Source: Halobacteriovorax sp. HLS
Lineage (GTDB): Bacteria > Bdellovibrionota > Bacteriovoracia > Bacteriovoracales > Bacteriovoracaceae
Direction: 5' to 3'
Assembly: GCF_004006665.1 (NCBI RefSeq)
Contig: NZ_QOCL01000003.1
Span: 310,001-374,000 of the forward strand
DNA: 64,000 nt
Shown: in pieces, positions 27,803-44,088 of the stretch
Numbering within the stretch: the first letter of the stretch is position 1
Layout: each line of letters starts with the position of its first letter
Notes under the pieces: model-generated
What the model was told of the DNA's origin: nothing
The model's input: only the letters and a program-made list of their open reading frames with translations
Database searches by the model: none
Translations under genes and position numbers: made by a program

Positions 27803-28276
27803 ATGAAAAAATTAATAATGGCAACAGTTTTAGCATCAGTTGTTTCTGCTCCAGTTATGGCAGCAACTCAAGGAACATTACTTTTACAAGGTCAAGTAGA
27901 CCAGGTTTTATCTTTAACTGTTAATCCGGTAGCAGGTCATGACTCTCTTGATTTAACAGCTAGTCCAGTAGATTTAAATGTTGCGTCTGTTAATGAAGTA
28001 TCAAACGCTGAAACTGGATATAAAATATTAGTTAGATCTGCAAATGCAAGTAGCCTAAAGAATGGTACTGCGGACCAAGTAGACTACACTCTTTCATATG
28101 GAAATAGTGGAGCACTTACTCTTACAACGACAGACCAAGTTGCTAAATCTGTGACTACTGCTGGTACATATAATGTTGATACTGATGTAGATATCTCATA
28201 CACAGGTAGTCCAGCTGCTGAACTAGTACAAGGTACTTACTCAGATACAGTTACTTTTACTATTCAAGCTAACTAG
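27803..28276 (+). CDS. Major pilin-like subunit of a chaperone-usher pilus
   Basis: The 157-residue product has a signal peptide (MATVLASVVSAPVMA) and a compact Thr/Ser/Val-rich mature domain starting ATQGTLLLQGQVDQVLSLTV, where an N-terminal donor strand is expected. The core ETGYKILVRSANASSLKN and YSDTVTFTIQAN fits the spore-coat-U/Csu type of archaic pilins. It lies first in an operon with chaperone, usher and tip genes, has a GGAGAG site, and is followed by a strong hairpin, as expected for the most abundant subunit. It has no Cys pair, unlike type 1 pilins. Confidence 0.82.
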   Translation: MKKLIMATVLASVVSAPVMAATQGTLLLQGQVDQVLSLTVNPVAGHDSLDLTASPVDLNVASVNEVSNAETGYKILVRSANASSLKNGTADQVDYTLSYGNSGALTLTTTDQVAKSVTTAGTYNVDTDVDISYTGSPAAELVQGTYSDTVTFTIQAN

Positions 28277-28295
28277 TTGATATAATAAATAAGTA

Positions 28296-28321
28296 GACCT
28301 TTTTACTCAAGTAAGAAGGTC
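28296..28321 (+). terminator. Attenuator hairpin after the major pilin gene
   Basis: GACCTTTTTACT (28296-28307) pairs with AGTAAGAAGGTC (28310-28321) over 11 Watson-Crick pairs and one wobble, with only two loop bases. It sits between the pilin and the assembly genes. Such hairpins allow a large excess of pilin mRNA over chaperone and usher mRNA by partial termination or 3-prime stabilisation. Confidence 0.65.
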
Positions 28322-28327
28322 ATGTAA

Positions 28328-28359
28328 CCGAGAAGCTCTTATAATAGGGGGTTTCTCGG
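28328..28359 (+). promoter_or_regulatory. Hairpin enclosing the ribosome binding site of the second pilus gene
   Basis: CCGAGAA (28328-28334) pairs with TTCTCGG (28353-28359). The loop carries the GGGGG ribosome binding site and the last paired base is the first base of the GTG start codon. This could limit translation of the small protein or couple it to read-through. The structure is seen in sequence; its effect is inferred. Confidence 0.45.
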
Positions 28360-28613
28360 TGAAACTATTTAAGCTATGTCTGTTTCTTTGGTTTTCTTCA
28401 CCTGCTGCAAGTTATGCAGGTAGCTCGAAGCAGCTGTTCTTAAGAGCTATTGTTCGTCCAAATATCAACGTGTACTTTGATGAAAATCAGGGAATACGTG
28501 TCCATACAAATTCATATATTAAAAAATCAATTAAGAACTATAAATATTCTGGAAAGCTTAAAAAAGTGTCCTCAAATAAGAAGCTTAAACTCTTAGAAAT
28601 CTCTATGAATTAG
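28359..28613 (+). CDS. Small pilin-like secreted protein in the pilus operon
   Basis: An 84-residue protein starts at GTG and has a signal peptide (LCLFLWFSSPAASYAG). The mature start SSKQLFLRAIVRPNINVYFD resembles the donor-strand region of the major pilin (TQGTLLLQGQVDQVLSLTV), but the protein stops after about 65 residues with a basic tail. It could be a minor subunit, a pilus terminator or a decayed pilin. Its position between pilin and chaperone matches the minor subunits of Csu-type operons. Confidence 0.6.
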   Translation: MKLFKLCLFLWFSSPAASYAGSSKQLFLRAIVRPNINVYFDENQGIRVHTNSYIKKSIKNYKYSGKLKKVSSNKKLKLLEISMN

Positions 28614-28648
28614 TTGTTAGACACAATTAATTTAGATAATATTATTGA

Positions 28649-29356
28649 ATGAAAAATTCAATAATTATAATCTTATGTTCTCTTTTCTCTCTATCCATAC
28701 ATGCCTTTAAACTCTCTCCAATGAGTTATTCCATAATAGGTGGTGGTAAGAATAATATAGCTAACTTTACTGTTTCAAATGATGGAGAAACACCTATTGC
28801 TGTTCAGCTCGAAGTTAAAGTTAGAGATATGTTGAGCGATGGTAGTGAAAAACTTCCTGAGACTGAGGACTTTCTTGTTTTTCCGGATCAATTAGTTTTG
28901 GGCCCAAAGTCTAGAAGGGTTGTTAAAGTTAGATGGTTGAAAGGTGAAGTTGAAGATTTTGAAAGATCATTTCGATTAATTGCAGAGCAACTTCCTATTG
29001 ATCTAAATAAGAAAAAAGGTGCTAAGACTGATATCAAGATCTTACTGCGTTATGTTGCTGCCTTGTATGTCACCCCAAGTAAGGCGCAAAGTAATATCTC
29101 TGTTGTTAAGTCTAGTGCGACAAAAGACTTGAAGAAGGTTCTTATTGACGTACGTAATGATGGTAATTTGCACTTAGTGCTCAGCAGTCCTAAGATAACT
29201 TTTACTCAAGAAGGAAAAGACTTTTTGGTTGAAAATTATGAAGGTATTCTTGGAGAAAATATCTTAACTCGCTCTAACCGTAAATTCTTAGTTACTCCTC
29301 CATCTCTTGTAAATATTCAAAAACCATTTAAGGTAAGAATTAAAAATAATGATTAA
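28649..29356 (+). CDS. Periplasmic pilus assembly chaperone (PapD/CsuC-like)
   Basis: The 235-residue protein has a signal peptide (IIIILCSLFSLSIHA) and the two immunoglobulin-like domains of pilus chaperones. FKLSPMSYSIIGGGKNNIAN is the first strand pair, VFPDQLVLGPKSRRVVKVRW is the conserved G1/F1 region with the P-x-x-x-R-x-V pattern, and FRLIAEQLPIDL is close to the archaic (Csu) group. It donates a strand to pilin subunits and brings them to the usher. It overlaps the usher gene by eight bases. Confidence 0.88.
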   Translation: MKNSIIIILCSLFSLSIHAFKLSPMSYSIIGGGKNNIANFTVSNDGETPIAVQLEVKVRDMLSDGSEKLPETEDFLVFPDQLVLGPKSRRVVKVRWLKGEVEDFERSFRLIAEQLPIDLNKKKGAKTDIKILLRYVAALYVTPSKAQSNISVVKSSATKDLKKVLIDVRNDGNLHLVLSSPKITFTQEGKDFLVENYEGILGENILTRSNRKFLVTPPSLVNIQKPFKVRIKNND

Positions 29357-31736
29357 GCTGGTCTTCACTCTATTTCTTTTATTAGTCAACTTTAGTAGTT
29401 ACGCACAAGGTAGTGACGAAATATTTAGCAAGGTTTTTAAAACTAAAGAGCGCTGGGTCCCTGTAAATATTATTTTTGATTCGCAAGACCTTGGTGAAAT
29501 ACCAGTAAAGTTTGAAAATAACAAGGCCAAATCTTTTCTAAAAACGAAGAGTGTACTTTCGGCCCTTTTGAAGGATTCTTCGCTTTTAACTGATGATGAA
29601 GTAACCAATACTGAGTTAGCAAAGTCTGGCGTTGAACTTATTTTAAATGAAGAGAAGTTCTTTCTTGAAGCGAAAATTGATATAAAGTATAGAAAGGAGA
29701 TTGTAACGAATTTAAGTTCAGACTATAAACCTGAATGGGTTAAGAATGAATCGACTCCTGAAGATATATCATTTTTTTCGAATTTCTTTTTTTATGCGCC
29801 TTATGCTCACAATAAGACGACAACAGATTCAGAGCTTGATCTCGCTCCGAATTTAAAGCTCTACGACTTTGTTGTAGAAAGCTCACACACTTACAAAGAA
29901 GACTTCGTTGCTCGTAAATTTACTCGTCTTGTTTATGATCGACCTCAAGATTCGACAAGGCTAGTTTTAGGAGATAACTCTGGCCCATCGAAGGAATTCG
30001 TAGCACCAATCCAATTTCTAGGATTGAGTTACGGTAAGAACTTCTCACTGCGTCCTTATGATGTAACAGTCCCTAGAGGATATGCTGAGTTTGAGTTAAC
30101 AGAGCCATCAACAGTGAAGGTGTATGTTAATGGTTCATTGATACAGATTTTAAGACTAAGGGAAGGAAAGCATAATTTGGAGGACCTTCCTCTGATTCAA
30201 GGGCTTAACGAAGTTAAATTAGTTATAGAGACTGAACTTGGAAGAATTGATGAGATTATTATTCCGGCCTCTTTTAGCCAAGATCTGCTTAAAAAAGGTC
30301 TATCTGATTTTTATTACTCAATTGGAAAAAAGAGTACGCTTACTCAAAGAGATTTGGATTATTCAGACGATGAAGAGGTCTATACTGTCTTTCATCGTTA
30401 TGGTTTTTCTAATACCTTTACTCTTGGTGGACTTCTTCAAGGAGATGATGAGTCTCAAATTCTTGGATCCGACCAGGTTTTCTCATCAGAGATAGGGCAG
30501 TTTAAATTTCAACAATATGCAAGTAATTCATCAAGTGAATACGGTGGTAACCTAAAAGGTGAGTACTACTACCTTAATAGATCCGTTAAGGGGGAAGCTG
30601 CAACAGGACACTTGGTTGGTTTAGAATGGAGAAGTCCTAAATTTAAGGTTGTAGGGGATGAAAGTGCTCTTAATTATGCACGTACTAAGTTGAGCTATTC
30701 TTTTAACTCTACGATTAGTTTGTTGAACTTTAGAATTGGAACTGAGTATGAGTGGAATAAGCTAAATCCTGATTCTTTAAATGCCAACTTAGGCCTTAGT
30801 CGTACCTTTAAAAGAAGACTAAATGTTAACTTAACATCTAGTCTCAAGGAGACATTTGGTCATACTTCAAGCTTTGATATTTCATTATTCTTTAATTGGT
30901 ACCTTGCTGAAGAGGGACACAGCATTTACGGTAATTATAACTCCACTGGAAATAACTCTCAGCTCTCTTGGCAAAAGCTGCAAACTTCGTCTCACGATGA
31001 ATTCTCGTATCAGGTTACAGCTAGAAATGATGAATCGGGTAGCTCTGCTGAGATTGATGCTAACTATAACCATCATCGAGTTGAAACTTCTCTGCGCCAT
31101 ACTCAGTCAAAATCTAATGGAACAAATTGGAATCAGTATGACGGTAGATTAAAACTTGGAACTGCAATTGCTTTTGCTGGAAATAAGTTCTCAGTAGGTC
31201 GTCCAATTACTGATGGGTTTGCAATAATTAGTCGAGATGAAATTACGGAGAATCAAGATATTAAAATTAATAAATCTGGTCTTGATTATGAATATGAAAG
31301 TGATTTTTTCAATAGTATTATGGTCTCTAAGCTACAGGCCTATAGATATCGTCATTTAAGAATTGATTCGACGGCACTTGATGATGGACTTTCGTTAGAA
31401 AACGAAGAATATAGTTTATTTCCAAGCTATAAGTCTGGAATTCATATTAACTTGAAAGGCAAGGGCTCTGTGTCTGTTGTTGCAAATTTAGTATTACCAA
31501 ATGGTAAGCGAGCGGCCTTGAAAACATTTGATATTTACGATGATAGGAATAAACTTGTGCAAAGAAGCTTTACTAATCGTAAGGGAAGACTCGTTGCTGA
31601 AGGTCTAAATAGTGGTGTTTACTCTGTAAGGCTTAATGATGGTAATAGAGTTTATCAAGGTACTATTAGGATCAATAATAAGAAATTTGGATTACTGAAT
31701 TTAGAAGATATTAAGCTAGTAAGGGCCGCTAAATGA
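29349..31736 (+). CDS. Outer-membrane usher of a chaperone-usher pilus
   Basis: The 795-residue protein has a signal peptide (LVFTLFLLLVNFSSYAQG), an N-terminal chaperone-binding domain, a central region with PRGYAEFELTEPSTVKVYVN then GSLIQILRLREGKHNLEDLP (the usher plug and its flanking strands), a long barrel with many GxxLxxxF-type strands, and a C-terminal beta-sandwich domain (AALKTFDIYDDRNKLVQRSF). It forms the pore through which subunits are added. It matches the shorter, archaic ushers of about 800 residues. Confidence 0.9.
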   Translation: MIKLVFTLFLLLVNFSSYAQGSDEIFSKVFKTKERWVPVNIIFDSQDLGEIPVKFENNKAKSFLKTKSVLSALLKDSSLLTDDEVTNTELAKSGVELILNEEKFFLEAKIDIKYRKEIVTNLSSDYKPEWVKNESTPEDISFFSNFFFYAPYAHNKTTTDSELDLAPNLKLYDFVVESSHTYKEDFVARKFTRLVYDRPQDSTRLVLGDNSGPSKEFVAPIQFLGLSYGKNFSLRPYDVTVPRGYAEFELTEPSTVKVYVNGSLIQILRLREGKHNLEDLPLIQGLNEVKLVIETELGRIDEIIIPASFSQDLLKKGLSDFYYSIGKKSTLTQRDLDYSDDEEVYTVFHRYGFSNTFTLGGLLQGDDESQILGSDQVFSSEIGQFKFQQYASNSSSEYGGNLKGEYYYLNRSVKGEAATGHLVGLEWRSPKFKVVGDESALNYARTKLSYSFNSTISLLNFRIGTEYEWNKLNPDSLNANLGLSRTFKRRLNVNLTSSLKETFGHTSSFDISLFFNWYLAEEGHSIYGNYNSTGNNSQLSWQKLQTSSHDEFSYQVTARNDESGSSAEIDANYNHHRVETSLRHTQSKSNGTNWNQYDGRLKLGTAIAFAGNKFSVGRPITDGFAIISRDEITENQDIKINKSGLDYEYESDFFNSIMVSKLQAYRYRHLRIDSTALDDGLSLENEEYSLFPSYKSGIHINLKGKGSVSVVANLVLPNGKRAALKTFDIYDDRNKLVQRSFTNRKGRLVAEGLNSGVYSVRLNDGNRVYQGTIRINNKKFGLLNLEDIKLVRAAK

Positions 31737-32647
31737 AATTTTTAATATTGCTGTTAACTCTTTTTTCTACTCACGCTATGGCGGTCAATTGCCCAATGTA
31801 TGCATTTGTAAATTCTGTTAATTTTGTACAAATGCAGGCCGACCAAAGTGTCGCTGTTGATATTGACCTGTATCGTTTTACTTCTCATAATGATTGTAAA
31901 AAGTATTCTCTAGGTATTACAACAGGATCAGCTAGTTCTTATTCAAGAAAACTCTATAACGCTCAACATAGTGTTAGCTATAACTTTCATGAAAATGAGA
32001 GCACCTCTAAAGTGATTAAGGACTTAGATGATGGGAATAATAGTGAGCATGTATCTATTAATTTTAAGAATAGTTACTATCAAAGAGTTACTGTGTACGC
32101 GAGAATGCCTAACCCTTATAGCAATGGGAACCTACAGACGGGACTCTATTCGGATAATGTCACAATAAATATTCGACCTACTAAGAATGGCACAACTGGA
32201 GGAGTAAGCCGATCAGTTAGCCTATATCTAAATATCCAGTCAGACTTAAATATCTCTCTAGTAGAAAAGGGTGGTGCTTTTAATGAGAATAGCACTTTCT
32301 ATTCTCTTTCTTTCATACCTATGGTTGGTGGTCAGACTAAGGGAATGCATTTAATCGTTAAGTCTAATTCTGGCTATAGAATAACTGTCTCAAGTGAAAA
32401 TGACGGAAGGCTTACACATGTTAATAAGCCTAATGGAAATACAGTTGATTATACCTTTAGTGTAAATGGAGTTGGTAGAAGCTTAATTGGTTCTTTGAAT
32501 AATCCTGATGAAATATTTTATTCACCAGTGGCCTCCCCTAATGATGGAGATGTTATTGATATTGATGTGACTATAGATAGTGTTATTAATAAGTTGTCCG
32601 GAACCTATCGCGATCACATCTACTTTAATGCAATCAGTACTCATTAA
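31733..32647 (+). CDS. Tip adhesin-like subunit with C-terminal pilin domain
   Basis: The 304-residue protein has a signal peptide (ILLLTLFSTHAMA), an N-terminal beta-rich domain (about residues 20-165) with few Cys residues, and a C-terminal domain that resembles the major pilin: SGYRITVSSENDGRLTHV and TVDYTFSV parallel the pilin segments TGYKILVRSANASSLKN and QVDYTLSY. This two-domain layout fits a tip adhesin such as CsuE. It overlaps the usher by four bases and converges on a permease gene with a four-base overlap. Confidence 0.8.
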   Translation: MKFLILLLTLFSTHAMAVNCPMYAFVNSVNFVQMQADQSVAVDIDLYRFTSHNDCKKYSLGITTGSASSYSRKLYNAQHSVSYNFHENESTSKVIKDLDDGNNSEHVSINFKNSYYQRVTVYARMPNPYSNGNLQTGLYSDNVTINIRPTKNGTTGGVSRSVSLYLNIQSDLNISLVEKGGAFNENSTFYSLSFIPMVGGQTKGMHLIVKSNSGYRITVSSENDGRLTHVNKPNGNTVDYTFSVNGVGRSLIGSLNNPDEIFYSPVASPNDGDVIDIDVTIDSVINKLSGTYRDHIYFNAISTH

Positions 32648-34328: not shown

Positions 34329-35453
34329 TTAAAGTGGATATATTTGGATAGCATGATTAAGGAGATTTTCGGCCCACTCATACTCTCTAAGGATGACTGG
34401 TGCATTGAGGTGACTTTCTTCACCCTCATTTAATAAATCGTAATCATAAATAGGCATATTCTTATTAGGGTAGATTGAGTCTCTCACGTAGAAGACTCCC
34501 TTTCCTCGGCACGAGCCGTTACTCTCATAAGAGTCTTGAACTTGTTTTCCTCTTGATCTAAATTTTGCTGCTTTACGCTCTAGCTTTCTCTTTTTCTTTG
34601 GATCTTCTTCGTTACTGGCCTCTAGAGAAATTTCATCGGCTCTTTTATTCATTAACTTGTCAAAGTTTGATACGAATGGGCAGCCCTTAGAGTCAGCGTA
34701 GTCATTGTAGCCAACGATCAAGTTTGCATGCCAATAACCTACATGATTATAGATTACGAGAACTGGGGCATTTCTTTTCTTTAAGGCATTCTTTATTCTT
34801 GTAACAATATCTTTAGGAGCAGTAGTAACATTCCATCTATTTTCACTTGGGTCTTTAAAAATAATTTCTCTATCAAACTGAGGTAACTTAACCATTGGTG
34901 CTTTAATATCTTGATAAAGGCTAATCCAGCTATAAGAAATACCGTACTTTGCACCTTCTTCATCTTTTAAAGCAGGAACTCTTTGTCCTTCTACACTCTT
35001 ATACCAACCCTTTGTGTATCTATAGTCTTCATTTTTGTAAATTTCACCACGCTTGTTAAGAGCATAGATCATATCTGTAGGCCAATGTTCAAGATCATCA
35101 TCAAGACCTTCTTTAGATAGATTCATAAAGTATCTTTCTGATAAATTTCTCTTTTCAGAAGTCTGTCTATCGTTACTCAGTTTTGAATACCACCATTCTA
35201 CATTACCTGTATGGCTCATAAATAAGCAGCTTCCGGCATCTTCTTGATCAGGAGCTGGGAGTATATGTTTTAGTAACTTATTAAAACCACCCTTATACGA
35301 GCTAGAGTCGGGGACGATTGCTTTTGTGAAAACTGCAGTCGTTCCCTCAGATGTAGAGTTTGGGAATTTGGCCCCAATAATTAGGCTCTGGTCTGTGTTC
35401 ACAGTGGCCATAGGATTAGCTGTAAGAAAGCTAATAAGAAAAAGTGTTAACAA
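34329..35453 (-). CDS. Secreted papain-like cysteine peptidase-type protein
   Basis: The 374-residue product starts at TTG with AGGAGA upstream and a signal peptide (TLFLISFLTANPMA). The segment APDQEDAGSCLFMSHTGN has Gln70 and Cys76, the exact six-residue spacing of papain Gln19 and Cys25 (oxyanion and nucleophile). Further on, HVGYWHANLIVGYNDYA resembles the papain His motif. A Lys/Glu-rich helix lies between His and the C-terminal strand. It is divergent from the amidoligase-like pair. Peptidase or transpeptidase action on a peptide or amide is likely; the substrate is unknown. Confidence 0.7.
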   Translation of the reverse strand: MLTLFLISFLTANPMATVNTDQSLIIGAKFPNSTSEGTTAVFTKAIVPDSSSYKGGFNKLLKHILPAPDQEDAGSCLFMSHTGNVEWWYSKLSNDRQTSEKRNLSERYFMNLSKEGLDDDLEHWPTDMIYALNKRGEIYKNEDYRYTKGWYKSVEGQRVPALKDEEGAKYGISYSWISLYQDIKAPMVKLPQFDREIIFKDPSENRWNVTTAPKDIVTRIKNALKKRNAPVLVIYNHVGYWHANLIVGYNDYADSKGCPFVSNFDKLMNKRADEISLEASNEEDPKKKRKLERKAAKFRSRGKQVQDSYESNGSCRGKGVFYVRDSIYPNKNMPIYDYDLLNEGEESHLNAPVILREYEWAENLLNHAIQIYPL

Positions 35454-35663
35454 GTAGTTCTCCTAGATTAGTGGATGAAAATAGTAAGATAACCTTGGCT
35501 TCAACGCACGACTCTGTGCGCATAATCAACGTGAAATCAGTTATTTAGAGCATTAATTATTTTAATACTAAAGTAAATGACTCAGGTGTCCGTAAAGTTG
35601 AGTGAATAACTATATTAATAACGATTTTACTAAAGGTAGTAAAAAACAAATAAAGAGGTAGAA

Positions 35664-36635
35664 ATGTTCTTTTGTAAAAAATTTCTAAGGAAGGCATCCC
35701 TTGCTTTCATTCTTGGAATGCTCATTACGGGTCAGTCTATGGCCTCGGCCGTTAAATTGATTGATATTTTAATCAACGATTCTGGACTGTCTCAATCATT
35801 GTCTAAATACGGTGTTCGTGGCACGAGTGCGACTCAAGTTAAGAGTTATGTTAAAAACTCTATTGACTCTCTTTATAAATTTGGAGGATCAACGCCTTCA
35901 GCAAAAACTTTGAGAATGCATATCTCTCAAATACCTGCACAAGGAAAAGATCTTAAATATAAGAAAGACCTTATGGCACTACTGAATAAGTCAGAATCTT
36001 CTATGGCAGAAGGTGACTTGGTTAAGGCCGTAAACTCATTAATTTATTTATCTAATCGTTATGGGAAAAGAAGTGCAACAGTACTTGCCTGTTCTGCGTG
36101 TGTAAGTGACAAACTTAGTAGTTTAGGATTCAAGTTCACATTAGAAGTAATGAGCGACAAACAATCTAAAGAAGTTCTAACAAAGATGCTACCTAATCAA
36201 CCTAGGTCATTGACTAACTTTATCAATACTAAACTGGCAAAACATAATATTGGCTCACTGGCAGGATCAAAAAATATAGTTGCACCAGAAGAAGAAAGAG
36301 CACTTGGTTTGTTCCTAGGACTCAAAGAGATCGGCTCAGCTGACCAGAAAAAATTGATCGCAGCGATAGAAGAAATTTCTAAAGATGAACATGGATCGAT
36401 TAATATTTTAAATCCTAAGAATCCACATAAGTTATGGAAGCTCTTTAGTGAAGATATTTCTGAGAGTGATATGACTGGATGGACGAAGCTATTAGATGAA
36501 GTGGCATCAAAATCAGCTGGCAAAACTAGCAAGAAAGATACTTTCTACGAAATTCTTGAGGCCAGAGCAGCAAAGAATCCAGAGTTTGAAGATCGTATTC
36601 AGATACTAAAAAATAAGAACTGTTTTTTTAAATAA
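35664..36635 (+). CDS. Secreted helical protein, family unknown
   Basis: The 323-residue product has a signal peptide (ASLAFILGMLITGQSMASA) and a mostly helical mature part rich in Lys, Leu and Ser, with one CSAC pair in VLACSACVSDKLSSLGFK (about residues 141-158). AGAGGT precedes the ATG. It is 24 bases upstream of the amidoligase-like gene and probably in the same operon. No known motif; perhaps a partner or substrate of its neighbour. Confidence 0.7.
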   Translation: MFFCKKFLRKASLAFILGMLITGQSMASAVKLIDILINDSGLSQSLSKYGVRGTSATQVKSYVKNSIDSLYKFGGSTPSAKTLRMHISQIPAQGKDLKYKKDLMALLNKSESSMAEGDLVKAVNSLIYLSNRYGKRSATVLACSACVSDKLSSLGFKFTLEVMSDKQSKEVLTKMLPNQPRSLTNFINTKLAKHNIGSLAGSKNIVAPEEERALGLFLGLKEIGSADQKKLIAAIEEISKDEHGSINILNPKNPHKLWKLFSEDISESDMTGWTKLLDEVASKSAGKTSKKDTFYEILEARAAKNPEFEDRIQILKNKNCFFK

Positions 36636-36659
36636 TATATAAGTTAAAAAGGATTAAAT

Positions 36660-39600
36660 ATGTCTATTAAAAAGAATAACAAAGGCTGGAGGCAGTTACC
36701 TGCAAATCTCGCCATGATGACATTGCTATATAATTGTTCAAGTGTTTCAACTGGACCACGATATATAGCCGATGATAGCGATGCTCCAAAGTCCGCTTAT
36801 GATATGTGGGGATATTTGCAACAAGGAGCAACTCAATATAATGCTAACGCTGTTCAGGTCGAAGGCCAGAACATGGACGGCTTTATGGGTGGGGTCTCTT
36901 TTGGTGCTGAGAAAGAAGCATCTTCGGGACTTATAACTAGAATAATGGGACCAAGCGGAGATGATTTTAAAAGCTATGTACTTAGTCTACCAGAGTCACA
37001 GAGAAAAGAGTTTATCTCAGATTTTCTTAGCAATTATATGAAAAATGCTAATGGGTATAGAACCTATATCACCGAAGATGGAGTTAAGGTTGACCTAGCT
37101 TCAGATGTTAAAGATATAGATGGTGTGGCAAAGGTAATCGATCTTGATCAACTTAGAGGTGTTGATTACGCAAGTGCCAGCACAGAAGTTCTCGATGAAA
37201 AATTTTCTAAATTTGTTGATATGACTGATGGTCGTCCTATGTCTTTTATTAAGCCTTCTGTGAAGATGAAGCTTTTTAAAGGAAGTATGCCTGGTCAAGG
37301 TGGTTCTGCTATACCTAAGAACTATAGATCATATGTAACAAACTTTGGTCTTCCACAAAAGTATATCGAAGATGCTCACGGTCATTACGGTGGTGTTGGT
37401 GGAGGATGGGAGCTAGGTTTCACTCCTCAAAATAGTTATGCAGAATTTGAAGAGATGGTTATTTGGTTTAGAAAAGAGCTTAAAAATGCAGGGCAGATTT
37501 TCCAAGCACCAGGTCACCAAAGAATGGTTTTCAAGGCCCATTCACAATTAGACGAGGCCAGACTGGCCGAACTCTATAGAGGTATTCAGGCCCTCATTGT
37601 GATTGACGGTATCAAAGGTGGAACAGGTATCGAGAAGGCCAATTATAAAGGCGTTCAAACAGACAATGGACTGGCCTCTTTAAGAACTCAAAGAGGGGTT
37701 ATCAGACTTGAAGGAAATAGATGGAAAGAAGGAACCCATGGGGTCGAATTTAGAGCAGGTACAAAAGATATTAAGCTCGCAAGATTTTATCAAACAGTTT
37801 TAGCTTCTAGAGTCTCATCAAATGACTTTAGTGGTCTGTCCAAGATCTCTGACTGGAGCTTATGGGATGGAAATGTTCCTAGCGCAAGTGTTCTAGCGCA
37901 AAGACATGGTGTGAGTGAAACTGTTGCTCAAAAAGCACTCGATAATATTCGAGGAGGTAATCTTAAATATGAATTTACACTTCCATTGTGGAATTGGGGT
38001 GATTCAAATAATCCAATTCTTGGGGCAAATAAAAGAGCTATGGTAAACTCTCTAACCAAGGACTTCTTAGAGCAAGTCGCGGCGTTGGATGCAGACAGTG
38101 GAGTTCTTGAAAGAGATGTTAGAAGCTTATTAAAGTCTTGGACTAAGATGACAAGACTATCTGACGAGGTCAGAAGATATATCCAACCACGTAGAGGAAT
38201 AAATGTTGCGCAGGATCTTCTACAATTCAATCTTCCTGAAGATGGAAGAAGATTTGTAAGGGCCGTTACGGATGTGAATAATATCGACTTGGGTATCGAA
38301 TATTCGGGTAAGATGCCTTTGATGGTAAATGCTGAAATGACTCCTGATAAATTAGGAGATAATAAGAAAGCGTGGATACAAACATATGGCGACTTAACAG
38401 ATGAAGAAAGAGAAGCAACAATTAGAAATATTGCTCAGGATTTACATAAGAACCTTGGTGGTGATGGTACTGCGACAAAGGTTGAAGGTGGCGGAGGTCA
38501 TGGTCATGGTTTAGAGCTATCTTATGAAATTAGAGATCCGCAAAATAGAAAGTGGATCGTTGAGTGGGATGGTATTGGTAGAACTTACACTCCAAATGGT
38601 GAAGTTATTGATGGTTCTGCAAGAGCAGGGTCTGTTGAGCTTGTAACACCGAAATTCACTCCTGCGATTGAAGATATTGGCGCTGTGTATGAAGCATTCC
38701 AGAAGAATAATATTCTTCCAAATCTTCTTTCAGGTGGTGGGCACGTAAATATCGACTTAGCTGCTTTTGAAGGTAAACCAAAGGAGTTAGCAAGATTCTT
38801 AACAATTTTCCATGAAAATAGAGGAATCATGTCGTTAATGTTTCAACATGTAAATCGTGTTAAAACATCAGAGCCAATAGCAATTTCTGACAACCTTAGA
38901 AATCAGCTTAAAAACTTTGAAGGTAGTGAGGAAGATCTTAAGAAGCTTCTTTATAACGAAGAATACTTTAATACTCGCTATGGAAGAAAGTCTCGTTATT
39001 TACAACTTGATATGTCTGCATATTTTCAAGATGTGATACCAGAAGAATTTATTACTGAAGACTTTGATATTGCAAACCCGACGGTTCCTTGGAGAAGACA
39101 ATTTAGAGTTGACCCAAGAATTAGAAAGGCCGAGTTTAGAATGTTTAATGCTCCTAGAGATGCAGCTGAGTCTGCACTGCAGATCAGACTTGTAAAGGCA
39201 ATGCTCTCTAAAGCATTGAATGAAGATGATGCTTTAAGTGGAACTGTTCAAAATACTAGTCACACTGACTACTTGGCAACACCACAAAAGGCATACGATG
39301 ATCTTGATAAGCTTTGTGCACAACTTGGATTAAATGCTGATGACTTTAGACCAAGTGTTGCAGAAGGGTTAAGTGAAACTGATCTTGCGACAAAATCAAT
39401 TTTCTTTGAGAAATTCGAAGACAAAATGAGAGTTCATCCACACCAAAGAGGTTGGGGACAAGCCGTTGCTGCGAGAGAAGAGGCCTTAAACTCTGAAGGG
39501 CGTGTTTGGCAACCTGGTAGCGCTGATGAGTTGAATACTATGACTCACGAATTTAGAATTGAAGCTGCTGAAGAAGGTGCCAGAAGAAGAGCGAATATTT

Positions 39601-39674
39601 CTCCAAATAGAAATATTCCAGTGCAATTTAAAAGAACTGATAGCTGTATAGATGCTATTGGCCCATTATTATAG
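36660..39674 (+). CDS. Envelope protein with two amidoligase (GCS-fold)-like domains
   Basis: The 1004-residue protein has a basic N-terminus and a possible lipobox (TLLYNCSS, Cys25). It shows the motif order of GCS-fold amidoligases twice. First: GGGWELGFTPQ (about 246-256), HQRMVFKAHSQL and GTHGVEFRAGTKD (about 357-369). Second: GHGLELSYEI (about 612-621), AGSVELVTPKF (about 655-665), SGGGHVNIDLAAF (about 691-703) and KAEFRMFNAPRD (about 822-833). The E-x-E, ExxTP, G-G-H-x-N and EFR features are typical ATP- and metal-binding elements. It would ligate an amine to a carboxylate; the substrate is unknown and the call is by motif only. Confidence 0.7.
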   Translation: MSIKKNNKGWRQLPANLAMMTLLYNCSSVSTGPRYIADDSDAPKSAYDMWGYLQQGATQYNANAVQVEGQNMDGFMGGVSFGAEKEASSGLITRIMGPSGDDFKSYVLSLPESQRKEFISDFLSNYMKNANGYRTYITEDGVKVDLASDVKDIDGVAKVIDLDQLRGVDYASASTEVLDEKFSKFVDMTDGRPMSFIKPSVKMKLFKGSMPGQGGSAIPKNYRSYVTNFGLPQKYIEDAHGHYGGVGGGWELGFTPQNSYAEFEEMVIWFRKELKNAGQIFQAPGHQRMVFKAHSQLDEARLAELYRGIQALIVIDGIKGGTGIEKANYKGVQTDNGLASLRTQRGVIRLEGNRWKEGTHGVEFRAGTKDIKLARFYQTVLASRVSSNDFSGLSKISDWSLWDGNVPSASVLAQRHGVSETVAQKALDNIRGGNLKYEFTLPLWNWGDSNNPILGANKRAMVNSLTKDFLEQVAALDADSGVLERDVRSLLKSWTKMTRLSDEVRRYIQPRRGINVAQDLLQFNLPEDGRRFVRAVTDVNNIDLGIEYSGKMPLMVNAEMTPDKLGDNKKAWIQTYGDLTDEEREATIRNIAQDLHKNLGGDGTATKVEGGGGHGHGLELSYEIRDPQNRKWIVEWDGIGRTYTPNGEVIDGSARAGSVELVTPKFTPAIEDIGAVYEAFQKNNILPNLLSGGGHVNIDLAAFEGKPKELARFLTIFHENRGIMSLMFQHVNRVKTSEPIAISDNLRNQLKNFEGSEEDLKKLLYNEEYFNTRYGRKSRYLQLDMSAYFQDVIPEEFITEDFDIANPTVPWRRQFRVDPRIRKAEFRMFNAPRDAAESALQIRLVKAMLSKALNEDDALSGTVQNTSHTDYLATPQKAYDDLDKLCAQLGLNADDFRPSVAEGLSETDLATKSIFFEKFEDKMRVHPHQRGWGQAVAAREEALNSEGRVWQPGSADELNTMTHEFRIEAAEEGARRRANISPNRNIPVQFKRTDSCIDAIGPLL

Positions 39675-39685
39675 AATAAAAAATC

Positions 39686-39717
39686 GGCCCTCTTTTCTTG
39701 AGAGGGCCATTTTTTTT
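39686..39717 (+). terminator. Rho-independent terminator after the amidoligase-like gene
   Basis: GGCCCTCT (39686-39693) pairs with AGAGGGCC (39701-39708) around TTTCTTG and is followed by a run of eight Ts. It lies 12 bases beyond the stop codon. An A run before the stem may let it also serve the convergent gene. Confidence 0.92.
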
Positions 39718-40126
39718 AGACATCTAAAGTATGTAAAACAAATTCCTCACTTCCTAACTTCAGCTTAAATTGCCAACTACCTTTCATGCCTTGCATGTAG
39801 AAAATTTTAGAATTTTCATATATTCCATCACTTTCTAGTTTAGTAGAGACTGGTCTTGTTCCATGAGAGTGACCATGCATTAGCATCCATCCAAAGAATT
39901 GAACACTTTCTTTTGGAGAGTTATAAACTTCTTTTTCTTCAGTACTTAATAATAGATTTTTGAATCGTACAATATTTCTTGAAAAAGATCCTACATATGG
40001 GCCTTGAGTCCACTCAATTTGAATACAGAGTTTTTCCTTTGTGATTGCAACACAGTTTTCATTACTAGAGCTAGCAAATACGACATTGGAAAAGAGTAGT
40101 GCTGTTAGGGCAATAAGTTTAATCAT
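39716..40126 (-). CDS. Small secreted protein, related to the lipoprotein at 42681
   Basis: The 136-residue product has a signal peptide (LIALTALLFSNVVFAS) and an immunoglobulin-like mature part: IEWTQGPYVGSFSRNIVRF, then MLMHGHSHGTRPVS and FYMQGMKGSWQFKLKL. The same order (WKEGPEFGSKSSMVIKFW, MPDGNEHGSSPISI, IMAGRWELRIR) occurs in the lipoprotein at 42681-43184, so the two are homologues. The pattern resembles FixH/YtkA-type domains linked to copper or cytochrome assembly. It abuts the His/Met-rich gene by one base. Confidence 0.7.
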   Translation of the reverse strand: MIKLIALTALLFSNVVFASSSNENCVAITKEKLCIQIEWTQGPYVGSFSRNIVRFKNLLLSTEEKEVYNSPKESVQFFGWMLMHGHSHGTRPVSTKLESDGIYENSKIFYMQGMKGSWQFKLKLGSEEFVLHTLDV

Positions 40127-42039
40127 TAGAATTCTCCTTCTATATAAGTTCTATACCTTTTGATATTTGTTCCTTCAATATTTAAAATGGCCTTCTTTAC
40201 TTTTTTTCCTGATGCTTTCATTACTTCATTTAGCACAAAGCGATTTTCTAGAGACAGTTTTCCCAGTTTCGTGAAGCTTTCATTGAAACGCTGGTGTTGT
40301 TTTGTAATAAGCTCATTCTTCATTTTCTTTAGTAATGGAGAAATCTCTTTTAAGATCTTTTTTGTCTTTTTTATTACTCTTTTTTCACATATCGATAATA
40401 AGAGATCAATTGCACAATATTCTTTAAGATTTTTTCCTCTAGCGAAGTAACTTTCTATTTCACGTTTTATATTTGTGGTCGACTTATTTATATTTGAGTT
40501 CAATAAATTTATTGTTTCATCCTGATTCAATGATAGGTCTAGCTCAATTTTTATATAACCAATCTCTTCTTGCTGTGGAAGCTCTAATGTTCTTACCTCA
40601 TCAATACCTAAAACCTTTGCTGCTTTTTTTAGTTTTTTTACTAAAGTATCCCTTTGCACGTCCTGTTTCGAGTAAAACCATTTGAATGATCCTGCATACC
40701 TTGGCGAAATGTCCTTGTGTTCTTGATTTTCGCTCACCATGGACATGAAAACTACTCCTCCATTCTTATGATTACTTAAAATCCCGTCAGTTGTGTGCGT
40801 TTTCTTGAACATACCCATGTAAGACTTTATCTTTGAACCTGTGTATCCATTGTGCGTGAATGAGGTATTAATTATTTCGCCTTTTGTATTTTGTGAATTA
40901 AATAGAAATGGCATACCGGCAGTTAATTTACGTGAACTTCCACTCATTGATGAGGTCGAAGTTTTTACTATTTCAATGGCCTTAAGACCACTTTTTATTA
41001 GTTCTTGTGAATACAATATGTCGCCGTTTAAAAATCTTCTATAGGCGATTGATGCTTTTGCATCTGATAGATCAAAAATGAAATTGAAATATTTGTCTGT
41101 ATCTAGCATTTTTGATGTGGATATCTGAACCAGCATGTTAGAGATACCTTTTGAGAACATTTTTACTTCGCTTTTTCTAATTGTTGCTAAAACAAAATTT
41201 TCGTCAATTTTTCTCACGCTTGTGTGCCAGGTCCCCTGTGCCATATAGGTTTGCATTGCACTTACTATAATAGACATTCCTGCACCAGCTCCAAACATCA
41301 CTCCACCTGTAGAGCTATAAGATATTTGATCATTAATTTTCCAATCATTAAGCTCTTTTAAGCTTGTTGGAACACTCATCTTTTCAACGAGTTCTGACTT
41401 TTCAATTGAGTCTATATGTTTAAGTTTATAAACATGTCCGCCCTTATATGGCATTAAACTTAGTTTTAGAGAAAATAGGGGAATATCCACGGGCGGCATT
41501 GCCATTATTCCAATTCCTCCTCCCGCGTGTATCATCTTATTCTGTGCTACGACCAGATTATGTGAGTCATAATCCCACTCGAGTTGTGACGAGTTAGATT
41601 TGTTTAAATTAATGATATTAGTAAATTTATCACCACCTAGAGAGATCATTGGCATAACTGAGTACATCCATTCTTGATCCATATCCATTGCATCTCCATG
41701 GTGATTCATGCTTTGTTCGTCTTCATGCATGTCACCATTCATTTGATTATCATTCATATGGTCGCCATTCATATGATTTGAGTGCATGTCATTCATTGCT
41801 GAATGATCAGACATATTGTTGTTATTCATACCATCTGAACTCATCGTTGAATGATGATCCATGGAGTGACCACTAAAATCTAAATTATATCCCCACATGA
41901 GCATACCGTTGTGATTTATTCTAAGTGGTAGTGGTATCATCGAATTGATGCTGCTTGTTGCTTCCTCTGTTGCCTGTGCTTTATTTGAGTGCGAAAAAAA
42001 TATCAGCGCACATATTATTACTATACATTTATTAATCAT
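40126..42039 (-). CDS. Secreted His/Met-rich protein, probable metal binding
   Basis: The 637-residue product has a signal peptide (IVIICALIFFSHSNKAQA). Residues about 57-125 are crowded with His, Met, Asp and Asn, for example SGHSMDHHSTMSSDGM and GDHMNDNQMNGDMHEDEQSM, a composition typical of copper-binding regions in periplasmic proteins such as CopA and PcoE. The remaining 500 residues look like a beta-rich secreted domain plus a helical C-terminus with Lys-rich KKMKNELITKQHQRFNESF. No enzyme motif is seen. It is divergent from a redox cluster and shares a palindrome-containing promoter region with it. Confidence 0.72.
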   Translation of the reverse strand: MINKCIVIICALIFFSHSNKAQATEEATSSINSMIPLPLRINHNGMLMWGYNLDFSGHSMDHHSTMSSDGMNNNNMSDHSAMNDMHSNHMNGDHMNDNQMNGDMHEDEQSMNHHGDAMDMDQEWMYSVMPMISLGGDKFTNIINLNKSNSSQLEWDYDSHNLVVAQNKMIHAGGGIGIMAMPPVDIPLFSLKLSLMPYKGGHVYKLKHIDSIEKSELVEKMSVPTSLKELNDWKINDQISYSSTGGVMFGAGAGMSIIVSAMQTYMAQGTWHTSVRKIDENFVLATIRKSEVKMFSKGISNMLVQISTSKMLDTDKYFNFIFDLSDAKASIAYRRFLNGDILYSQELIKSGLKAIEIVKTSTSSMSGSSRKLTAGMPFLFNSQNTKGEIINTSFTHNGYTGSKIKSYMGMFKKTHTTDGILSNHKNGGVVFMSMVSENQEHKDISPRYAGSFKWFYSKQDVQRDTLVKKLKKAAKVLGIDEVRTLELPQQEEIGYIKIELDLSLNQDETINLLNSNINKSTTNIKREIESYFARGKNLKEYCAIDLLLSICEKRVIKKTKKILKEISPLLKKMKNELITKQHQRFNESFTKLGKLSLENRFVLNEVMKASGKKVKKAILNIEGTNIKRYRTYIEGEF

Positions 42040-42087
42040 ATTGACCCCTTTTTAGGAAAACCTAGTCAATTTTTACCAAGTTGTAAC

Positions 42088-42104
42088 TGCAACAAATTGT
42101 TGCA
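42088..42104. promoter_or_regulatory. Palindromic operator candidate in the divergent metal/redox promoter region
   Basis: TGCAACA-AAT-TGTTGCA is a perfect inverted repeat with 7-base arms, lying between two divergent genes (His/Met-rich protein to the left, thioredoxin-fold protein to the right). The centre is about 35 bases from the right start and 57 bases from the left. This is where a metal- or redox-responsive regulator would act. The regulator is not identified. Confidence 0.55.
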
Positions 42105-42138
42105 TCGTCATTTGAAAATAAAATTGCTATAAGGCTTT

Positions 42139-42678
42139 ATGAAAAAAATATACGTACTTATATTGTTATTTCTAGGCCAGCAAGCAATGGCATCTTTAGC
42201 AAGAATACATGCGCTCGATCATAGCGGTGAAAGGATTGACATAGATACAGCAAAGAATAAAACGACTGTCCTTATTTTTATTTCAGCTCAGTGTCCATGC
42301 TCTGATTCACATATTGAAGAAATTAAACGCTTAAAGAAAAAGTATTCAAATGTTAAATTCTATGGCGTTCATTCAAACTATACAGAATCTAAGTCTGTTG
42401 CAATAGAGTATTTTAAATCTAAGAAAATTAATTTCCCAATTATTCATGATAGTGAATCTTCTCTAGCAAAGAAATTAGGAGCACTTAAGACTCCGCATGC
42501 ATATATTTTGCAAGCTCAAGGAAATATCGTATATCGAGGTGGTGTTACTAACAGATCTAATGCTCTTAATGCTACTAAGTTTTACCTTGATTCAGCATTA
42601 TTAGATATAAAAGAAAATCGAATGCCAAGAACTCCTATGAGGAAAACTCTAGGGTGCTATATCGCTTTAAAGGATTGA
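42139..42678 (+). CDS. Thioredoxin-fold protein with a CPC active site
   Basis: The 179-residue product has a short signal peptide (LILLFLGQQAMAS) and a thioredoxin-like fold of the redoxin type: VLIFISAQCPCSDSHIEEIK (Cys52 and Cys54), VKFYGVHSNYTESK, KINFPIIHDSESSLAKKLGA, KTPHAYILQAQGNIVYRGGV (cis-Pro region). CPC redoxins occur beside copper and cytochrome assembly genes; SCO-like roles are analogous but the motif here is CxC rather than CxxxC. It heads a set of genes ending in a sensor kinase and regulator. Confidence 0.8.
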   Translation: MKKIYVLILLFLGQQAMASLARIHALDHSGERIDIDTAKNKTTVLIFISAQCPCSDSHIEEIKRLKKKYSNVKFYGVHSNYTESKSVAIEYFKSKKINFPIIHDSESSLAKKLGALKTPHAYILQAQGNIVYRGGVTNRSNALNATKFYLDSALLDIKENRMPRTPMRKTLGCYIALKD

Positions 42679-42680
42679 GT

Positions 42681-43184
42681 ATGAGTAAATTATTATCCTT
42701 TCTTTTTTTACTTTTTCTTTCTAGCTGTGGTGGAGAACCTCTTTTTTCTTCTTTAAAAGAGAAGACCAGTAACGATCAAGCATTCATCGAACAGGTACGT
42801 AACAATAAAGTGATGAAGTGGGCAGGTGACACTCGAATAAGTTTTGCCATTTCGTGGAAGGAGGGCCCTGAGTTTGGAAGTAAGTCATCTATGGTTATAA
42901 AGTTTTGGGACTCCTATCAGAATGACTTCTTTGGACCATACGAGAAACTGAGTGATAAAGTATGTGCCTTTCTTTGGATGAAAATGCCAGATGGAAATGA
43001 ACATGGCTCTTCACCAATTAGTATTATTGAAAATGAAGACTCTTATTTCTTTGATGATATCTATTTTATTATGGCCGGTCGATGGGAATTAAGGATAAGG
43101 ACGATCGACAACGATATGAATTGTAGTTCTATTAAAGATTCACCTTATATTCATGAAGAGATTCTTAGTATTCATGTTAAATAG
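42681..43184 (+). CDS. FixH/YtkA-like small lipoprotein
   Basis: Starting at the ATG at 42681, which has AAAGGA upstream, the 167-residue product has a lipobox (FLLFLSSCGGEP). Mature segments IRNNK-type helix, SWKEGPEFGSKSSMVIKFWD, MPDGNEHGSSPISI and MAGRWELRIRTI match the protein at 39716-40126, so this is a paralogue in a lipid-anchored form. The longer frame from 42654 overlaps the upstream gene and is less likely. It starts two bases after the thioredoxin-fold gene. Confidence 0.78.
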   Translation: MSKLLSFLFLLFLSSCGGEPLFSSLKEKTSNDQAFIEQVRNNKVMKWAGDTRISFAISWKEGPEFGSKSSMVIKFWDSYQNDFFGPYEKLSDKVCAFLWMKMPDGNEHGSSPISIIENEDSYFFDDIYFIMAGRWELRIRTIDNDMNCSSIKDSPYIHEEILSIHVK

Positions 43185-44088
43185 ATTTCTTTTTATATAT
43201 TTCTTTTTTTGTCTAAAGGTTTTTGCTGGAAGTTGTTGTGGCGGAGGCGGAGGAACTACTCAAATAATGCTTGGTGATACTGATAAAGTCTTTAGGGTCA
43301 GCTATTTTGATAGAACTATTTTAGCTGATACTGGCGAAAGTCGATATTTATCACTAAGATCAGAATCGGAGCTTGAATCTCTTAGATCAATTAATCTCTC
43401 TAGCAGTATACGTTTTAATGAATATTTTCAATATGGTCTTCAGTTTAAGGTAATAGAAAAGACAAAAGAGATTAATCAACAAAGGCACAGTGAGAGTGGT
43501 TTAGGGGATAGTGAATTTAACCTTGCTTATGAATTTATGCCTGAGTATTCAAGTTCTTCCTTTATATCTCAAGGCTTCATTTATTCAAAAATTCAGATAC
43601 CTTCTGGAACATCTCTTTTTACAACTAAGAGAAATGATACTCTAGACACATTTGGAACTGGTCATTACTTATTTAGTCTTGGCAGCATATTTACTAAAAG
43701 ATTCAGTAAGGGATTAACTAGTGTGACTCTTGGGCTTTCATATAGGCCAGGAAGAACATTTGAAAGAACTCTTATATCTGATAGTGAGCTACGAACATCC
43801 TCTTCTTTAAATTATGATTTATCCATTAATCAGAGTTTAGATATATCAAATTCATTGTCATTAGATTTCGCGATATCAAGAACTTATATTTCAAAACTAC
43901 CGACTTCTTCATTATCTAGAAATAAACTATCTTCTAGCTTAAATAGTGCCTCATTTGGTGGTTCTTATAACACAGAGCTGTATACATATTTAATTACATA
44001 TATAGATGATTTTCTTATCGGATCGAGTTACAACACTATTCTTGCTCGATCAATAAAGATGGAAATTATGAGAAAGGTTAATCTCTAG
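43174..44088 (+). CDS. Exported barrel-like protein with N-terminal Cys-Gly cluster
   Basis: From the ATG at 43174 (overlapping the previous stop by 11 bases) the 304-residue product has a signal peptide (FLFIYFFFCLKVFAG) and then SCCGGGGGTTQIMLGDTD, a Cys pair in a Gly-rich loop that could bind metal. The rest is strand-like, with SGLGDSEFNLAYEFMPEYSS, SVTLGLSYRPGRTFERTL and similar segments typical of outer-membrane barrels. An in-frame start at 43153 is possible. Position in the cluster suggests an outer-membrane channel or sensor; this is inference. Confidence 0.7.
   Translation: MLNRFLFIYFFFCLKVFAGSCCGGGGGTTQIMLGDTDKVFRVSYFDRTILADTGESRYLSLRSESELESLRSINLSSSIRFNEYFQYGLQFKVIEKTKEINQQRHSESGLGDSEFNLAYEFMPEYSSSSFISQGFIYSKIQIPSGTSLFTTKRNDTLDTFGTGHYLFSLGSIFTKRFSKGLTSVTLGLSYRPGRTFERTLISDSELRTSSSLNYDLSINQSLDISNSLSLDFAISRTYISKLPTSSLSRNKLSSSLNSASFGGSYNTELYTYLITYIDDFLIGSSYNTILARSIKMEIMRKVNL

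Follow-up and report, generated by a model that had tools for sequence, protein, structure and literature searches.

A protein predicted to be an exported, tandem amidoligase (AL) is encoded next to a secreted papain-like protein (PAP1) in the marine predatory bacterium Halobacteriovorax sp. HLS, and relatives of AL recur beside unrelated peptidases across the phylum Bdellovibrionota. With about even confidence, we interpret this arrangement as an exported amidoligase-peptidase module which would act on substrates of the envelope or of the prey. The window, i.e. the whole stretch of 64,000 nucleotides that was analysed, contains the locus at 34329-39708.

Locus layout and the secreted proteins

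Three open reading frames reported in a preliminary description of this DNA were confirmed at the same positions. The features of the locus are as follows.

34329..35453, minus strand: PAP1, secreted papain-like protein of 374 residues, with Q70, C76, H242 and D325
35454..35663, no strand: intergenic region between PAP1 and MID-AL, presumed promoter region from the divergent gene layout
35664..36635, plus strand: MID, secreted and probably helical protein of 323 residues, with invariant C143, C146 and C320
36660..39674, plus strand: AL, predicted exported tandem amidoligase-like protein of 1004 residues, with PF12224 match and AlphaFold2 model
36660..36737, plus strand: predicted lipoprotein-type signal of AL (residues 1-26, LYNC at 23-26), by simple hydropathy
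36894..37820, plus strand: N-terminal half of AL (residues 79-387), GS/GCS-like motif set, putative fold
38277..39410, plus strand: C-terminal half of AL (residues 540-917), Amidoligase_2 domain, GS/GCS fold
39686..39708, no strand: bidirectional terminator-like hairpin, 12 nt 3' of the AL stop

MID and AL are co-directional and 24 nt apart, and PAP1 is divergent from both. No promoter-like site was listed within the intergenic region 35454..35663. The hairpin downstream of AL is formed by 9 pairs (6 GC) with a T run on both strands. The nearest named genomes are those of a Halobacteriovorax marinus isolate and a Bacteriovoracaceae MAG.

The AlphaFold2 model of PAP1 (pLDDT 90.6) matched cathepsin S with a Z of 15.9 (rmsd 3.0, 186 residues aligned) and procathepsin K with an E of 1.3e-4 in Foldseek. 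Residues Q70, C76 and H242 are placed like the Gln, Cys and His of papain, and the position of papain's catalytic Asn is taken by an invariant Asp, D325. Since the strict Gln-Cys-His-Asn site is absent, PAP1 is called papain-like and not strict C1A. The model thus assigns a papain-like fold to PAP1 with high confidence, and the papain-like neighbour divergent from AL that had been proposed earlier was borne out. The PF00112 profile gave no match in the window PAP1 in the Pfam search; 11 of 25 PAP1 relatives matched it at E<=1 (best 3e-5). PAP1 carries a long helical insert at about 264-311 and is without a long propeptide; a DUF6381 match on this insert was set aside. PAP2, a further family of papain-like proteins (PF00112 above cut-off in L068), is encoded a few genes downstream from AL in several genomes, at L063, L065-L068 and L134, and about 300 kb from AL in the Halobacteriovorax sp. 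HLS genome.

MID is a secreted, probably helical protein, and it stands between PAP1 and AL as had been claimed. Its three cysteines are invariant in an alignment of 17 sequences, and the gap between MID and AL is 9-53 nt in relatives. Among the loci read, MID was found only beside AL. The Pfam search of MID returned no family above cut-off, and a weak Thioredoxin_13 match (E 0.021) was set aside.

Export was judged by simple hydropathy of the N-terminal stretch. A strong hydrophobic stretch was present in 81% of 42 AL homologues, 96% of PAP1, 100% of MID and all eight subtilisin-like S8 partners described below, compared with 44% of the remaining long ORFs of these loci. The window AL has one of the weakest signals of the AL homologues (h 1.40, short h-region). 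Its LYNC is a non-canonical, lipobox-like site, which aligns with the lipobox-like orthologue sites IASC, LPGC, ITGC and FSSC. Hence AL is predicted to be exported, as the preliminary description held, mainly from the clear signal peptides and lipoboxes of its orthologues, and it is probably lipid-anchored.

Family, fold and conserved residues of AL

AL matched Amidoligase_2 (PF12224) over residues 587-790 with 22.5 bits and an E of 1.2e-4 (Pfam), which alone passes the cut-off of 22 bits only marginally. All 30 aligned homologues (alignment A1, 37-82% identity to AL) matched the same family at E<=0.1, the best with 1.5e-8. In the AlphaFold2 model (pLDDT 85.6, pTM 0.84), the C-half matched YbdK 1r8g (Z 13.3, rmsd 4.6, 248 aligned, model 540-915), glutamine synthetases (Z about 14) and the depupylase Dop (5lrt, Z 11.5, model 540-917). 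A plain Foldseek search with the model gave weak matches in the PDB (best E 3.4e-3), and among viral models phage amidoligases came top (E 2.8e-5). AL is thus a divergent PF12224 protein whose C-half models as a glutamine-synthetase/GCS fold. An ADP-ribosyltransferase match (E 0.009), obtained with the AL alignment in a sequence search of solved structures, covered a mostly helical stretch and was taken as chance.

Two sets of polar residues are invariant across the 30 homologues. Those of the C-half, with strand positions read from the AlphaFold2 model, are E547 (strand 544-551), D637 (631-639), E660 in ELVTP (655-662), H695 and N697 in GGHVN, and E825-x-R827 (strand 823-826). Those of the N-half are E84-x-E86 (strand 79-87), E251 in GWEL (250-254), H286 (286-292) and E363-x-R365 (359-364). 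On the pattern of the GS/GCS fold, we assign these residues to its metal and phosphate site. In both halves the model shows the same strand-helix-strand-helix order following each E and H, and the spacing from E251 to H286 and from E660 to H695 is 35 residues in both cases. A second alignment brought in 17 further members of the AL family, for the most part more distant than the 30 homologues. Nearly all of them kept the listed residues, apart from E251, which a clade with proteins of roughly 900 residues has not conserved, and the ExE pair, which is absent from the apparently truncated L120. Across the phylum, E84, E86, H286, E363, R365, E547, D637, E660, H695, R733, E825 and R827 were kept in nearly every sequence. 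The C-half has Ser or Thr at the position of the second Glu of ExE, and no Asp equivalent was found in the N-half.

The two halves were also compared directly. Alignment of the N-half and C-half profiles by hhalign gave a probability of 2.7%, with no significant match. When the strand states of the model were added, about 90 columns aligned with E84 near E547 (P 0.0016 uncorrected, probability 0.02%). Because the profile alignment was not significant, we only infer a GS/GCS-like fold for the N-half. The amidoligase family and GCS fold proposed earlier were therefore upheld for the C-half, and in the N-half the structure check revealed only the motif and strand order. As for the proposal that AL carries the motif set twice, the motifs named in it are present, with polar residues that do not vary among the 30 homologues, and an independent GCS fold of the N-half is putative.

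Distribution and exchange of peptidase partners

AL relatives were found in 37 of the 129 genomes of the family and in 65 of 369 genomes of the phylum. The trio proved to be syntenic elsewhere in Bdellovibrionota: the order divergent PAP1, MID and AL occurs in 16 genomes, Halobacteriovorax sp. HLS included. Some AL relatives reach about 2000 residues by a long helical C-terminal extension, which is HEAT-like where Pfam detects it. No AL relatives were found in viral contigs, in phages (tblastn) or in plasmids (searched with C-half DNA only), and there is thus no sign of a mobile-element origin. An anti-phage role was also set aside, as the trio had no PADLOC match.

A secreted subtilisin-like S8 protease goes with the AL relative in eight loci from other GTDB families, and in seven of them it lies directly downstream of AL and co-directional with it. 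The Asp, His and Ser motifs of these partners are intact (PF00082 E 1.1e-43 for L122); a papain identity for the gene after AL in L120-L127 was rejected in favour of subtilisin S8. In L119 (genome G131), from another GTDB family, a PAP1 homologue lies 30 nt downstream of AL and co-directional with it, and this AL falls inside the S8-partner clade. The peptidase has therefore been exchanged: either PAP1 became associated with AL on two or more occasions or it took the place of S8. A BPL_N GAT-like protein (L110 and L113) or a Gln_deamidase_2 protein (L111) adjoins other AL members, so that exported GAT-fold or glutaminase-family proteins are neighbours of some members, and beside some others an adjacent peptidase is absent. 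Because the pairing recurs across the phylum with unrelated peptidase folds, the amidoligase-peptidase linkage suggested in the preliminary description is real.

PF12224 proteins outside the AL family were considered as well. In 15 of 20 such loci taken from the phylum, the protein has a strong hydrophobic signal at its N-terminus. Three signal-bearing ones, of about 770-820 residues, have matches to R2K ATP-grasp domains as well; that of L171 is above the cut-off and those of L164 and L169 are below it. Exported BPL_N proteins come after these R2K-matching proteins, and L178 has BPL_N nearby. Three canonical members of about 325 residues (L181-L183) have no signal and adjoin Peptidase_C26. 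Peptidase-like neighbours are therefore common to both groups: in this phylum, cytosolic and many exported amidoligases have one. The earlier remark that an envelope version would be new thus needs refinement, since the phylum has several groups of exported PF12224 proteins, to which the AL family belongs. A literature search found no description of exported, tandem, protease-paired amidoligases in Bdellovibrionota, where a mention in the survey of Iyer et al. 2009 is still possible. The family and fold are known already, and the exported, tandem, protease-paired versions are apparently new.

Proposed function and comparison with known systems

Catalysis and a functional linkage are argued for because the sites are conserved and the proteases are swapped. 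In the proposed mechanism AL would be exported, probably lipid-anchored, and its single chain would contain two GS/GCS-type sites. AL would act outside the predator cytoplasm, either on the predator's own envelope or in the prey periplasm during predation, and the bonds it makes, amide or isopeptide, would be on a protein or peptide of the envelope or of the prey. The secreted protease paired with it (PAP1 here, S8 elsewhere) may prepare, trim or remove the product, MID may be a dedicated co-expressed partner of AL, and the ATP could be prey ATP or leaked nucleotide. ATP outside the cytoplasm is the main difficulty for the ligase reading, as the bacterial periplasm is generally taken to lack ATP. 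Judging from its lifestyle, an intraperiplasmic predator would have access to prey nucleotides, and there are older reports of ATP uptake by Bdellovibrio. Counted against the module are the replaced second Glu of the C-half ExE, the missing Asp equivalent in the N-half, the halves that did not align significantly by profile, the weak signal of AL and the AL members without a peptidase.

The leading rival, which we regard as possible but rather unlikely, is that AL cleaves, as Dop does in depupylation. AL would then be an amidase, isopeptidase or amide transferase of the GS fold that works outside the cytoplasm, and the peptidases would be co-secreted degradative enzymes. Such a Dop-like hydrolase or ATP-free transferase would ease the ATP problem, because no ATP turnover is required. 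The fold matches include Dop (Z 11.5), every recurrent partner is hydrolase-type, and degradation suits a predator lifestyle. However, Dop itself still binds nucleotide, predicted ligation gave PF12224 its name, and exported relatives within PF12224 have matches to ATP-grasp ligase domains.

Across many genera, few positions are as well conserved as the acidic, His and Arg residues of the two halves, which makes it improbable that AL retained the fold as a catalytically dead protein with a binding or structural role in the envelope, in spite of the Ser or Thr at the second Glu of ExE and the long helical, HEAT-like extensions of its relatives, which suggest scaffolding. Least probable is that AL and PAP1 are functionally independent and their synteny reflects slow rearrangement within the family: housekeeping genes (methyltransferase, TauE and prfC-like) are syntenic too, some genomes have PAP1 without AL beside unrelated genes, and PAP1 and AL are divergently transcribed, and in two genomes they are separated, but the PAP1 of L119 takes the co-directional position after AL that S8 normally holds in that clade.

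Amide ligases of the GS/GCS fold are thought to be cytosolic and ATP-driven. If the export of AL is real, the module would represent ATP-dependent conjugation outside the cytoplasm, possibly with prey ATP, or the glutamine-synthetase fold put to a new, metal-dependent use. The pair of AL and a peptidase would be a compact module open to experiment in bacterial predators, a group in which few secreted proteins have been characterised, and the presence of unrelated cutters in related bacteria suggests an unstudied system that attaches and removes peptide bonds extracellularly. In a wider version, which is speculative and which we consider unlikely, peptide conjugation outside the Bdellovibrionota cytoplasm would depend on ATP and be fuelled by nucleotides from the prey: exported amidoligases, some of which seem to have ATP-grasp domains, would tag proteins of the envelope or of the prey, and the tag would be processed by a secreted protease that is exchangeable.

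Iyer et al. 2009 are said to have described Amidoligase_2 as cytosolic and paired with a GAT-type peptidase neighbour. AL resembles the canonical members in family, fold, motif order and peptidase pairing. It differs in being (by prediction) exported, in being apparently tandem and in its length (about 1000 residues versus about 325), and it and its relatives pair with papain-like or subtilisin proteases instead of GAT-type/Peptidase_C26 proteins. The C-half fold is shared with glutamine synthetase, YbdK and GCS, from which AL is set apart by an identity of only about 10-12%, two presumed copies per chain and a predicted place outside the cytoplasm. Dop, with which the C-half shares the superfold, is a precedent for a GS-fold enzyme that cleaves isopeptide bonds, and it belongs to the cytosolic, actinobacterial Pup pathway. 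PAP1 resembles the papain-like C1A peptidases in its fold and in the placement of Q70, C76 and H242, and departs from them by the Asp in place of the catalytic Asn, the helical insert and the lack of a long propeptide. In the Pseudomonas Rlo module, a secreted protease is likewise linked genetically to an ATP-dependent ligase-type protein (PMC12239564). The ATP-grasp protein of that module is predicted to be cytosolic (PMC12239564), whereas in the present locus the amidoligase itself would, by its sequence, be exported.

Gene clusters near the trio

A chaperone-usher-like cluster (window 27803-32647, + strand) was observed near the trio of PAP1 (secreted, papain-like), MID (secreted, probably helical) and AL (exported, tandem amidoligase-like). 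Its members are all on the + strand:

small pilin-like protein
28649-29356, PapD_N chaperone
usher-like protein, 795 aa
tip-like protein, 304 aa

Window 39716-44088 is probably a metal-handling gene cluster, composed of:

secreted Met/His-rich protein, 637 aa
two YtkA-like proteins (matches below cut-off)
AhpC/TSA thioredoxin-like protein
311-aa protein with a Cys/Gly-rich start

Relatives of AL and PAP1

AL homologues of about 1800-2130 aa were found at L048-L052 and L110-L112. Their C-terminal extensions are long, and helical or HEAT-like where examined; the L110 homologue additionally carries an N-terminal extension. The PAP1 family is expanded in genomes G058, G059 and G060 (L084-L086), where 5-7 PAP1 matches per genome were accompanied by no AL match.

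Other PF12224 proteins

The genome of the window encodes a second protein of the amidoligase family PF12224 (L131:6660-9521; contig C9, about 22.7-25.5 kb). This 953-aa protein is a fusion of an SF2 helicase (type I restriction R-subunit-like) and an amidoligase domain. Genes for an AAA protein and a WYL regulator lie nearby, and the neighbourhood may be a defence island.

Elsewhere, PF12224 and an R2K-like ATP-grasp region were combined in single exported proteins (L171:6143-8605, L169:6820-9219 and L164:3837-6155), each adjoined by exported BPL_N GAT-fold proteins. At L170:4250-8937, three neighbouring genes all encode exported proteins: a PF12224 protein, one with a weak ATP-grasp match (YheC/D-like, below cut-off) and a 748-aa protein without family.
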